Source of the DNA: Candidatus Eremiobacterota bacterium
Lineage (GTDB): Bacteria > Vulcanimicrobiota > Vulcanimicrobiia > Vulcanimicrobiales > Vulcanimicrobiaceae
Direction of reading: 5' to 3'
Length of the DNA: 33,397 bases
NCBI GenBank assembly: GCA_019235885.1
Contig: JAFAKB010000050.1
Coordinates: 1 to 33,397 of the forward strand
The stretch's first letter is position 1; each line of letters opens with the position of its first letter. The notes below the pieces were generated by a model, which was given only the letters and a program-made list of their open reading frames with translations, was not told the origin of the DNA and did no database searches. Below are positions 4,744 to 14,831 of this stretch, piece after piece. The translations under genes and the position numbers were made by a program.

Positions 4744-5601
4744 GTGACGTTCGTGCAAGCGATGGTGCTCGCGGTGCTGCAGGGCGTCAGCGAACTCTTT
4801 CCGGTCAGCAGCCTCGGGCACACCGTGCTCCTGCCCGCGCTGCTGCGCTGGCACATCGACGAGGGTTCCGAATCGTTCCTCGCCTTCGTCGTCGTCCTGC
4901 ACCTCGGCACGGCGCTGGCGCTGATCGTGTTCTACCGCGAGGACTGGGTGCGCATCGTGCGCGCGCTCGTCACGACGATCGTGCGCGGGAAGATCACCGA
5001 CGACCGCGACGAGCGGACCGCGTGGCTGCTCGTCGTCGCGACGATCCCGGTCGGCGTCCTCGGCGTGCTGCTGCAGTCGCCGGTGAAGCAGCTGTTCGCC
5101 TCGCCGCTGCCGGTCTCGGCGTTCCTCTTCTTCAACGGGTTCGTGATGCTGCTGGGAGAGTGGTTGCGGCGCCGGCAGCATGCGCGCGCCGGGCATCCCT
5201 ACAAACGGCTCGAGGGTCTGGCGTTTAGGGACGGCGTGTTCGTCGGGTTCGCGCAGGCGCTGGCGCTGCTGCCGGGGATCTCGCGCTCGGGGTCGGCGAT
5301 CGTCGCGGGGCTGCTGCGGGATCTGAGGCACGAGGACGCGGCGCGGTACTCCTTTCTGCTGGCGACGCCGGTGATTCTGGCGGCGGGGGTGCTGGAGTTT
5401 CCCAAACTGTTCACGCCGGCGGCGCACGACGTGCTGCTAGAAGCGTGCGCGGGCGGGGTGCTCGCGGGCGTCACGGCGTATGCGTCGGTGGCATTCCTCA
5501 CCCGCTGGTTCCGGCACAACGATCTCACGCCGTTCGCCTGGTACTGCATCGTCGCCGGCGCCGGCTCGTTCATCCTCTTCGCTACGAAAGTGATCGCATG
5601 A
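4744..5601 (+). CDS. uppP: Undecaprenyl-diphosphate phosphatase
   Basis: UppP (BacA) removes a phosphate from undecaprenyl diphosphate to recycle the lipid carrier for peptidoglycan and other envelope polymers. The 285-residue protein is highly hydrophobic. It carries the first signature as LQGVSELFPVSSLGH and the second as LLPGISRSGSAIVAGLLRDL, followed by YSFLLATPVILAAGVLE. The start GTG 4744 gives an N-terminus (VTFVQAMVLAVLQGVSE) that matches the usual family start. A longer frame from 4648 would add about 32 unmatched residues and overlap the pilZ-like gene. It overlaps the next gene by ATGA. A peptidoglycan synthase (PBP1A) lies further right in the window. Confidence 0.93.
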   Translation: MTFVQAMVLAVLQGVSELFPVSSLGHTVLLPALLRWHIDEGSESFLAFVVVLHLGTALALIVFYREDWVRIVRALVTTIVRGKITDDRDERTAWLLVVATIPVGVLGVLLQSPVKQLFASPLPVSAFLFFNGFVMLLGEWLRRRQHARAGHPYKRLEGLAFRDGVFVGFAQALALLPGISRSGSAIVAGLLRDLRHEDAARYSFLLATPVILAAGVLEFPKLFTPAAHDVLLEACAGGVLAGVTAYASVAFLTRWFRHNDLTPFAWYCIVAGAGSFILFATKVIA

Positions 5602-5771
5602 AACAGCTTGCGCTCGTCCTGGCCGTCGTGTTCCTCATCATCGCCGTGCTGTACTGGACGGGGCATTTCTATCCGGCCGGGGTGCACACGAAGCACGGGA
5701 TCGTGGCGATCGTCCTCGCCTTGCTGTGCATCGTTTGGTACCGGTTTCAGAGCGCTGCCAACGTTCGCTGA
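5598..5771 (+). CDS. Small two-helix membrane protein, unknown function
   Basis: The ATG at 5598 overlaps the uppP stop (ATGA), which suggests translational coupling. The 57-residue product begins MKQLALVLAVVFLIIAVLYW and has a second hydrophobic stretch, HGIVAIVLALLCIVWY, with a short GHFYPAGVHTK loop between them and a basic tail. It is probably an inner-membrane protein that works with or stabilises UppP, but that rests only on position. I do not recognise a family. The large inverted-repeat element begins four bases after its stop. Confidence 0.7.
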   Translation: MKQLALVLAVVFLIIAVLYWTGHFYPAGVHTKHGIVAIVLALLCIVWYRFQSAANVR

Positions 5772-5774
5772 ACG

Positions 5775-5955
5775 GGATCGGGGCAGGCGGGGAGTCGTGC
5801 AGTGTTGCGGCGGGCACGCTCCCTGCGCGCATCCTGCGCTCCGGTCGCTACCTCTCCGTTCGCTCCCGGCCCTCCAGGCCTCCGCGAACTCCGAGAGTAC
5901 CCGCCGCAACACTGCACGACTCCCCGCATCGGCACGATGAGGAGCTGCCCCATCC
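5775..5955. repeat. Large structured inverted-repeat element, copy 1
   Basis: A perfect 26-bp inverted repeat (5789-5814 with 5900-5925), extended by two more pairs (5787-5788 with 5926-5927), encloses an 85-base centre. An outer stem with one bulged base pairs 5775-5786 with 5945-5955. Within the centre, GTTCGC (5858-5863) pairs with GCGAAC (5884-5889) and GGCC (5868-5871) with GGCC (5877-5880). The 11-mer TCGGCACGATG follows the main stem at 5929-5939. The element fills the whole gap between two convergent genes. Copy 2 lies at 13693-13857. No protein-coding role is credible. A terminator, an RNA-stabilising structure or a REP/MITE-like mobile repeat are the options. Confidence 0.85.
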
Positions 5956-12572: not shown

Positions 12573-13037
12573 ATGGCGCGCGCCGCGATCGGGATCGGTT
12601 CGAACGCCGGCGATCCCGTCGCGGTGGTGCGGCGCGCGTTCGAGCGGCTGGGCGAAGTCGGGACGGTCGTCGCGCGGTCGGCCTTGTACCGCACGGCGCC
12701 GTGGGGGGTCCGTGGGCAAGCGCCGTTCGTCAACGCGGCGGCGCTGGTCGAGACCGGGCTCGAGCCGCGCGCGCTGCTCGAAGCCCTGAAGCGGATCGAA
12801 GGCGAGGAGGGGCGGGTCACGACCTTCCGCTGGGGGCCGCGCGTCCTGGACCTCGACATCCTCGCCTATGACGGCGTGCGGCTCGACGAGCCGGAGCTCA
12901 CCCTGCCGCATCCGCGGCTGCACGAACGGGCGTTCGCGCTCGTCCCGCTCGCCGAGATCGACCCTTGCTACGCGGCCCTGCGCGACGCGCTTCCGCCCGG
13001 AGAGCGCGCGGGCGTCGTCGAACTGCGACCTCAATGA
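12573..13037 (+). CDS. folK: 6-hydroxymethyl-dihydropterin pyrophosphokinase
   Basis: FolK transfers diphosphate from ATP to 6-hydroxymethyl-dihydropterin and so feeds FolP. The 154-residue protein shows AIGIGSNAGDPVAVVRRAFE at the start, SALYRTAPWGVRGQAPFVNA, RIEGEEGR, then RWGPRVLDLDILAYDG with the metal-binding DxD, and LPHPRLHERAFALVPLAEI. These are the standard HPPK signatures. It overlaps the next gene by ATGA. Confidence 0.95.
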   Translation: MARAAIGIGSNAGDPVAVVRRAFERLGEVGTVVARSALYRTAPWGVRGQAPFVNAAALVETGLEPRALLEALKRIEGEEGRVTTFRWGPRVLDLDILAYDGVRLDEPELTLPHPRLHERAFALVPLAEIDPCYAALRDALPPGERAGVVELRPQ

Positions 13038-13684
13038 GAAGGTTTGCCGCCGCGGCGTTCGCTCTCGCGCTCGCCGCCGTCCCGGCCGCCGCGCGCGCCG
13101 ACCTCTTCTCCGCCGTCTCGTACGGCGTCCACGTGAGCACGATCGGCGACGGCATCACGCTGGAGAAGCCGCTGCTCTACGACTTCAGCGTGCGCGTGAA
13201 CACAGGCACGATGAGCGTCTCGCAGCAGCTCAGCTACGACAACAACCGCTATACCAGCACGAACCACTACTCGAACTTCGCGGTGATCGGCGACTACCGG
13301 CCGTCGGCGGGGCGGTATCGGATCAGCGCCGGGCTCGTCTTCGGCAGCGACCGGATCGACAACGTCTCGCGCGAGGAAGGCGCGCAGATTCGCGTCGGCA
13401 ACGGAATCTATCCGTCGAGCGGCACCGGTCAAGTGCTCGCGCGCGTGAGCTTCGACCGGCCGTCGATCTACGCCGGCGTCGGAACGGGGACCGGGATCAT
13501 CAAAGGGTTCGCGCTGGCGTTTGACGGCGGCGTGCTGGTCCGGAACGGGACGACAACGGTGAGCGCGAGCGGGCCGCTGGCGAGCAATCCGGCGTTTCAG
13601 AGCGATATGCGGCGGCTGCAGAGCGAGTTTCGGACGCATATCGTGGTGCCCGTGATTAGCGTCGGGTTGGTGTATCGGCCGTAG
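13034..13684 (+). CDS. Outer-membrane beta-barrel family protein, unknown role
   Basis: The 216-residue product has a clean signal peptide (MRRF, an Ala/Leu core, then AAARADLF). The mature part alternates polar and hydrophobic residues as in short barrel strands (YDFSVRVNTGTMSVSQQLSY, GRYRISAGLVFGSD, VLARVSFDRPSIYAGVGTGT) and ends in VVPVISVGLVYRP, close to a barrel C-terminus. The GFALAFDGGVLVRNGTTTVS and SNPAFQSDMRRLQSEF segments resemble uncharacterised outer-membrane proteins of Proteobacteria, from memory and not verified. It overlaps the folK stop by ATGA, so it is co-translated with folate genes although no functional link is evident. It is followed by the second large inverted-repeat element. 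Confidence 0.75.
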   Translation: MRRFAAAAFALALAAVPAAARADLFSAVSYGVHVSTIGDGITLEKPLLYDFSVRVNTGTMSVSQQLSYDNNRYTSTNHYSNFAVIGDYRPSAGRYRISAGLVFGSDRIDNVSREEGAQIRVGNGIYPSSGTGQVLARVSFDRPSIYAGVGTGTGIIKGFALAFDGGVLVRNGTTTVSASGPLASNPAFQSDMRRLQSEFRTHIVVPVISVGLVYRP

Positions 13685-13692
13685 CTTTTGTG

Positions 13693-13857
13693 ATCGTGGC
13701 AGCGGTGCGGGCGCGACGTTGCTGCGCGGGGCACGCTCTCCGCGCGCTTCCTGCGCGCGGAGAGCTACCGCTCCGTTCGCTCCCGGCCATCCTGGCCTCC
13801 GCGAACTCCGCGAGTACCCCGCGCAGCAACGTCGCGCCCGCACCGCTCGGCACGATG
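13693..13857. repeat. Large structured inverted-repeat element, copy 2
   Basis: A perfect 31-bp inverted repeat (13701-13731 with 13817-13847) encloses an 85-base centre, the same length as in copy 1. ATCGTG (13693-13698) pairs with CACGAT (13851-13856) outside it. Inside are a perfect 13-bp hairpin (13735-13747 with 13753-13765, loop TTCCT) and a second hairpin (GTTCGC 13775-13780 with GCGAAC 13801-13806, and GGCCA 13785-13789 with TGGCC 13793-13797). The centre is closely similar to copy 1, while the long stem differs in sequence but stays fully paired. TCGGCACGATG recurs at 13847-13857. The element lies between convergent genes, as does copy 1. Confidence 0.88.
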
Positions 13858-13865
13858 GTGCGTAC

Positions 13866-14831
13866 TTATCGCGCGCGGACTTGCTCGCAGAGATCGCGGG
13901 CCGCGGTGGGCCAGGTCGGATAGGTGAAGCTGAAGCCGCTCTGGGTCAACACAGCTGGGACGACGCGGCGGCTCTTTAGGATCAGCTCGGTTTCGGTTTG
14001 CATCAGGGCTGCGCCGATATTCAAGAGCGGGGCTGGTGAGGGCAGGCCGAACGGCGCGCCCCAGGCTAGGCGGAGGTCGGCCATGAAGAGCTCGTTGGGC
14101 AGCGGGGTCGGCGCGGCGACGTTGATGGCGCCGGCGAGTGACTCGTGCTCGATGATGTGGTCTAGGGCGCGGATGAAGTCGGCGCCGTGAATCCAGGAAA
14201 CGTACTGACGGCCGTCGCCCGCCGTTCCGCCGAGTCCTAGGCGCACAAGCCGCAGCAGAACGTCGAACGGGCCGCCGCGCAGCGGCGACATCACGATTGC
14301 GGCACGCAGCTTCACCGGGCGGACGTTCGGGACGTGTGCTTCGTCGAGCGCCGCTTCCCAGCGCTTCGCGACGTCGATGCTGAAACGCCAGGCGTCGGGC
14401 GCGTCCGGTTCGCTGCCGCCGATGATGCCGGTGCGCTCGTCGTTCGGGGCGTCGTAGCGGTGCGCGTAGATCGTTGCGGTGCTCATCTGGAGCCAGAGCT
14501 TCGGCGGCGCGGCGGCTTGCATCAGCGCTTCGCCGATGATGCGCGTCGACTCGATGCGCGAAGAGAGAATTGCTTCGCGATTGGCGGGAGTGTAGCGGCA
14601 GCTGACGCTGCAGCCTGCGAGGTTGAGAACGACGTCGGCGTTTTCCAGCTCGGCCGCCCAAGGACCGAGCGTTTTCGCGTCCCAGCGAACGACGCGCCAG
14701 GGTGCTTCGTGCGGGGTGCGGCTGAGGACGACGATCTCGTCGCCGGCGGCCTTGTGTGCGGTTGCGAACAGCGTGCCGAGGTGTCCGGTTCCTCCGGCGA
14801 GGACGAGCTTCACGGTGGAGCGATGCGGCAA
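13866..14831 (-). CDS. TIGR01777/YfcH-type NAD(P)-dependent epimerase-like protein
   Basis: This is an extended short-chain dehydrogenase with an N-terminal Rossmann motif (KLVLAGGTGHLGTLFA). Following segments are typical of the YfcH/TIGR01777 group: VVRWDAKTLGPWAAELENAD, VVLNLAGCSVSCRYTPANR, SRIESTRIIGEAL, a YVSWIHGADFIRALDHII segment and the C-terminal DUF1731-like ELILKSRRVVPAVLTQSGFSF. The substrate of this family is not established. The start is uncertain. TTG 14831 has an AGG about nine bases upstream, while GTG 14813 gives the canonical MKLVLAGGTG start without a ribosome site. It converges on copy 2 of the inverted-repeat element. Confidence 0.85.
   Translation of the reverse strand: MPHRSTVKLVLAGGTGHLGTLFATAHKAAGDEIVVLSRTPHEAPWRVVRWDAKTLGPWAAELENADVVLNLAGCSVSCRYTPANREAILSSRIESTRIIGEALMQAAAPPKLWLQMSTATIYAHRYDAPNDERTGIIGGSEPDAPDAWRFSIDVAKRWEAALDEAHVPNVRPVKLRAAIVMSPLRGGPFDVLLRLVRLGLGGTAGDGRQYVSWIHGADFIRALDHIIEHESLAGAINVAAPTPLPNELFMADLRLAWGAPFGLPSPAPLLNIGAALMQTETELILKSRRVVPAVLTQSGFSFTYPTWPTAARDLCEQVRAR

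Follow-up and report, generated by a model that had tools for sequence, protein, structure and literature searches.

Copy 2, at positions 13692–13856 of the window (the whole stretch of 33,397 nucleotides analysed here), belongs to a previously unlisted family of hairpin elements of ~165 bases, which resemble extragenic palindromes and integron attC sites but lack the defining features of both. The elements have a paired stem of ~31 bp with free sequence, a conserved two-hairpin crown and a fixed orientation behind stop codons, and they stay at orthologous sites. Our best reading, to which we assign a probability of roughly one in three, is that of a strand-specific structural element of gene 3' ends that acts on polymerases entering the gene from downstream, by a mechanism that we infer.

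Structure of the two copies in the window

The features of the two copies and their neighbours are as follows.

13692–13856, minus strand (the strand of selected pairing): whole element, copy 2; covariance model match G000:C50:13703-13845 minus, 128.9 bits, E = 9e-22
13692–13700, unstranded: outer end GATCGTGGC, one half of an outer imperfect inverted repeat that is conserved in the genus (positional profile); minus-strand reading GCCACNATC
13702–13732, unstranded: stem arm 1 (31 bp)
13735–13765, unstranded: crown hairpin B, a perfect 13-bp hairpin in copy 2 (derived state) with minus-strand loop AGGAA
13766–13812, unstranded: crown hairpin A, GCGGAGGCCAGGATGGCCGGGAGC on the minus strand, with a conserved purine internal loop and a GGA loop
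13816–13846, unstranded: stem arm 2 (31 bp)
13849–13856, unstranded: outer end GGCACGAT, partner of the 13692–13700 end in the outer inverted repeat; minus-strand reading ATCGTGCC, present in 84 of 112 copies
13034–13684, plus strand: gene bearing copy 2 at its 3' end, encoding a 216-aa protein with no Pfam match; its stop lies ~8 nt before the outer end
13866–14813, minus strand: convergent neighbour of copy 2, NAD-dependent epimerase with DUF1731
5775–5936 (approximate ends), minus strand: copy 1; covariance model match 5786-5928 minus, 143.2 bits; behind a 57-aa ORF at 5598–5771

The first-pass annotation of this DNA had described a perfectly paired 31-bp stem, differing from that of copy 1 by joint changes in both arms, beneath a largely shared centre of two hairpins, the whole resembling a three-way junction, and this description holds. 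The stem at 13702–13732 pairs without interruption with 13816–13846, within arms (13701–13734 and 13814–13847) that are 97% complementary across a spacer of 79 nt, and the differences from copy 1 are paired. Pairing reaches slightly beyond the stem, between the two halves of the outer repeat. The centre is 83% identical to that of copy 1 over the 109 nt compared, and the predicted fold places two hairpins on top of the long stem. The fold energy of copy 2 is -139.6 kcal/mol, compared to -83.6 ± 4.1 in 200 dinucleotide shuffles (z = -13.6), none of which was as low. Copy 1 shares the same plan (arms 5787–5821 and 5893–5927, 94% complementary), and both copies occupy gaps between convergent genes. 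A search for tRNA and tmRNA in the window found none.

Distribution of the element

The host belongs to Candidatus Eremiobacterota (WPS-2), a protein of the window having its closest relatives exclusively in Eremiobacterota MAGs, and a covariance model search found ~20 copies in its own genome. BLAST with copy 2 recovered ~10 further loci there, together with copies in congeneric species; in all of these the centre could be aligned and the stems were different yet paired. With the covariance model the element was detected in 11/11 genomes (species) of the genus and 71/99 of the family, and with a broader model in 83/117 genomes of the class Eremiobacteriia, including all three represented families. 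It was found in one of 32 genomes from the rest of the phylum and in none of 10 searched outside it. Stricter filters were applied in the large searches, so that copy counts are lower bounds. No Rfam family matched at gathering or relaxed thresholds, the one hit being a chance miRNA-like match to a stem (E = 0.017, below the cut-off), and a limited, non-exhaustive literature search found no published description of the element.

Some individual cases stand out. Genus g32 (10 genomes, within the family) has no detectable copy throughout, which suggests that the genus has lost either the element or what makes use of it. Across two genera, G001:C3:4223-4323 (L094) and G013:C32:1242-1383 (L181) are near-identical in element and flanks, with a crown deletion in one, reflecting either recent transfer or a binning error. 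A small palindrome, CCCTTCGACAAGCTCAGGGTGACA, recurs beside elements (flanks of G008:C4:1875734, G004:C103:10918, G002:C19:48333 and G000:C79:40494) and inside one (L102:2501-2649), and part of it, CCTTCGACAAGCTCAGG, substitutes for hairpin A within the copy at G002:C11:34324.

Position behind genes

Rather than a free intergenic repeat, the element is a feature of the 3' end of the gene upstream. Behind a plus-strand gene (the sense orientation, as drawn in the first-pass annotation) lie 108 of 116 copies; for 78 of these 108 the stop codon is no more than 30 nt away, the usual distance being 10–30 nt. All 15 adjacent pairs of elements are head-to-head, one for each convergent gene. Of the 116 copies, 73 have a convergent gene downstream and 33 a codirectional one. 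Placement is also orthologous: the element follows rpsI in eight species, infB in six, nusG in three and ffh in two, and infB is again followed by an element in another genus. Genes were called with a custom script rather than a published gene finder, and we take these four to be the genes named from a reading of their C-termini rather than from a database match.

The orthologue of the 216-aa gene also precedes an element in G001 and G002, whereas the corresponding site in L195 is empty. At the copy 1 site, neither G001 nor L195 has an element, while G002 has two. Vacant orthologous sites are numerous across the species compared, and the element is therefore not essential. In G007 the gene preceding copy 2 is duplicated, with the element behind the second paralogue (L194:5372-6690).

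Turnover of stem sequence under conserved pairing

In an alignment of 119 matches, which was fitted to the model and in which three rows repeat, read in reverse, copies present elsewhere in it, 96.9% of pair cells were standard pairs, compared to 63.4% after shuffling. Two-sided changes occurred at 44 of 45 pairs, with 1563 double-change cells observed against 433 in shuffled data. None of 500 shuffles reached the observed covariation, and the score of 0.78 compares with at most 0.13 in slid registers. A MAFFT seed alignment that was not fitted to the model still had two-sided change in 37 of 45 pairs. The paired changes between copies 1 and 2 that had first drawn attention to this structure are thus part of a strongly positive covariation signal, with pairing kept in nearly all copies.

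The sequence of the stem has little such constancy. Two copies taken at random have on average 13.2 of 29 stem pairs in common and orthologues ~54%, so that a single gene in different species may carry the element with a different stem, while stem lengths remain centred on 30–32 bp. Two loci of one genome, G002:C27:47341 and G002:C4:121402, have 28 of 29 stem pairs in common despite about a dozen differences between their centres, which looks like stem exchange or convergence.

The selected strand

Both strands of an inverted repeat can fold, and a mutation from G-C to A-T gives one strand a G.T mismatch and the opposite strand an A.C. Among stem mismatches in 112 copies, read on the minus strand, G-U outnumbers A.C by 100:33 (binomial p = 5e-9), or by 58 copies to 13 when counted by copy. 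The same direction is seen in the seeds found by BLAST (24:5, counted manually before any covariance model search), in other genera (15:2) and among single changes between orthologues (85:13), and the ratio is similar for convergent (55:19) and codirectional (31:11) neighbours; with one representative per orthologue or locus group the bias drops to ~67:27. The minus strand also gives the more stable fold in 106 copies compared to five, in part through purine-rich internal loops. A mutational strand bias was rejected as the source of the G-U excess, since four-fold degenerate sites are almost symmetric between strands (T/(A+T) 0.53, G/(G+C) 0.48).

These patterns indicate that pairing is probably selected on one strand, as RNA or single-stranded DNA, and that this is the strand opposite to the given coordinates, antisense to the preceding gene. 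Selection on RNA or cruciform structure had been proposed from the two copies in the window; the structural part of that proposal is upheld by covariation and G-U asymmetry, but a cruciform alone is disfavoured, since A.C on one strand is G.T on the other and no asymmetry could arise, and it is the opposite strand that appears to be selected. To judge from covariation above controls and strand-specific tolerance of G-U, the element is a candidate structured RNA motif. In being recognised by covariation and having conserved core nucleotides it is like candidate motifs from comparative genomics (e.g. PMC2864571), although it has no Rfam match at the gathering threshold.

A positional profile contained no promoter-like motif at a constant spacing upstream of the 5' end on the minus strand, no U-tract after the minus-strand 3' arm and no T-rich positions beyond either outer end; hence neither an independent small RNA nor a classical antisense terminator is seen. 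An independent minus-strand promoter was rejected on this ground and because some head-to-head pairs are just 42–62 nt apart.

Hairpin B and probable template switching

In copies near copy 2, hairpin B is mostly broken by an internal loop of GGA/GGA type. The orthologues of copy 2, in G001 and in G002, have this interrupted form where copy 2 has a perfect 13-bp hairpin. Compared with G001, one arm of copy 2 differs throughout a block of 7 nt, GACTGAA having become TCTCCGC (minus strand), and this block now complements the other arm. The C96 copy has a similar one-arm rewrite of hairpin B relative to three orthologues. By rewrites of this kind, template switching is known to create and preserve RNA hairpin stems (PMC8794818). 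Comparison with the orthologues therefore indicates that the perfect hairpin B of copy 2 was probably derived by template switching from arm to arm; the arm-to-arm gene conversion suggested in the first-pass annotation thus seems to act as well. A perfect hairpin B is common among more distant copies and is therefore a permitted state. Double changes between orthologues include an excess of the transversion type (430 compared to 276), but this is reversed in the closest pairs (23 transition-type to 12, manual tally), and we dropped the excess as proof of template switching.

Comparison with known elements and alternative explanations

The element might instead be a hairpin in the sense-strand 3' UTR that ends or protects the mRNA of the preceding gene, for example as the barrier up to which Rho-terminated transcripts would be trimmed back. 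This is possible, with the odds clearly against it. It agrees with the placement 10–30 nt past stops, the fixed orientation, the often highly expressed genes and the rarity of canonical U-tract terminators at gene ends that have no element (9/101), and the element is like bidirectional or intrinsic terminators in being a GC-rich hairpin close after stops, often between convergent genes. However, on the sense strand the mismatches are mostly A.C rather than G-U, and unlike those terminators the element has no U-tract on either strand (one follows it in 3/86 cases), a stem as long as 31 bp, a conserved branched crown and selection on one strand. Canonical terminators are neither replaced nor excluded by it, occurring at 12/86 gene ends with the element and 9/101 without (p = 0.35); terminator replacement was rejected on these counts, and an intrinsic terminator on the missing U-tract. 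In at least 10 copies a U-tract terminator precedes the element, which places it outside the sense mRNA, and the bias is retained (12:3); membership in the sense mRNA is thus not required. A sense 3' UTR accounts for the position of the element, not for its strand. A non-autonomous mobile palindrome of REP or MITE type, inserting behind genes and owing its structure to mobility rather than host function, is rather unlikely. Like REP/REPIN sequences and other extragenic palindromes, including ERIC and the GTAG- and CGTC-tagged repeats (PMC3116915, PMC3733652), the element is multi-copy, extragenic, palindromic and frequently placed where transcription units end; its copy number, its presence or absence between species and the near-identical stems at some loci of one genome (28/29 pairs in G002) would all suit mobility. 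REPs, however, have sequence-conserved arms, a length of 20–40 bp and a RAYT transposase, whereas here the arms are sequence-free and the centre is conserved, and Y1/RAYT is absent from 10/11 genomes of the genus; membership of REP/REPIN was rejected on the missing transposase and the unconserved arms. Aligned empty sites were inspected for clean insertion or target duplication and neither was seen, orthologous copies are kept in up to eight species with stems that have changed but stay paired, and elements in other genera have no sequence-conserved ends. A mobile repeat would explain the spread of the element, not its maintenance in place.

Strand asymmetry is compatible with single-stranded DNA too, and a site folded on the bottom strand, used in recombination as integron attC sites are or exerting a polar effect on forks, deserves mention, although we consider it improbable. 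Sites of the attC type likewise lie behind genes, vary in sequence and are structured on the strand opposite the gene (PMC2727003), but they conserve their ends and stand in cassette arrays, whereas the present element conserves its crown, has ends that are free outside the genus, and is found at fixed chromosomal host genes such as rpsI and infB. The end motif of the element, ATCGTGCC/GCCACNATC, is conserved only within the genus and is not RYYYAAC/GTTRRRY, and membership of attC was rejected. The consensus core sites of attC are RYYYAAC/GTTRRRY. Still less probable is a sponge like CsrB or RsmZ, in which a non-coding RNA from the minus strand would bind CsrA by its GGA loops. The minus-strand loop of hairpin A is almost always NGGAN and that of hairpin B often AGGAN, and CsrA was found in 11/11 genomes of the genus; but in about one third of counted copies the hairpin B loop has CGA (ACGAN) in place of GGA, so that GGA is not in all major loops, and no promoter at a fixed place was found. 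Nor is the occurrence of the element bound to that of CsrA: genus g32 lacks the element with CsrA present in 7/10 of its genomes, genus g9 has the element in 2/2 genomes and no CsrA, and 12/24 genomes of the class without CsrA carry the element; the sponge was rejected on loops and co-occurrence. We give least credence to the idea of a long palindrome that evolves neutrally and owes its perfection solely to template switching at replication. The one-arm rewrites in copy 2 and C96, and the established capacity of this process to make and maintain such stems (PMC8794818), favour it, yet it predicts the absence of a G-U bias, of conserved unpaired bases in the crown and of a fixed place behind genes, all three of which are observed, and the neutral account is already disfavoured.

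Proposed function and implications

Under our preferred reading, of a 3'-end element acting on polymerases from downstream, the entry of such a polymerase would produce or expose a folded nucleic acid. The folding molecule would be an antisense read-through RNA or, less likely, the lagging-strand template where it is single-stranded at a head-on replication fork, and the hairpin may then shield the gene from downstream traffic by acting at its 3' end as a polar barrier or a processing site. The stem may act by its length and double-strandedness, which would explain why its sequence is free, and it would be renewed both by compensatory changes via G-U and by template switching between arms, while the crown may be a recognition or capping structure. 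Antisense read-through is less to be expected where the downstream gene is codirectional, as it is for 33 of the 116 copies, and this speaks against an antisense barrier. The more speculative proposal, possible though not probable, is that these elements are polar insulators of gene 3' ends and make up a class of their own that is new: branched hairpins that, read in antisense, would stop or cut transcripts coming into a gene from downstream, or stall such forks, and whose stems would act through length alone and be replenished by template switching. To our knowledge, no known bacterial element joins a conserved crown, a sequence-free stem and selection on the antisense strand.

With more than 100 natural copies, including orthologues behind the same gene, in which stem sequence is nearly free and pairing is held, the element allows direct measurement of the way in which long perfect RNA stems evolve, be it step by step via G-U or through template switching. 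Should the antisense reading prove true, these uncultured soil bacteria would possess a dedicated means of defending gene 3' ends from antisense transcription or head-on replication.
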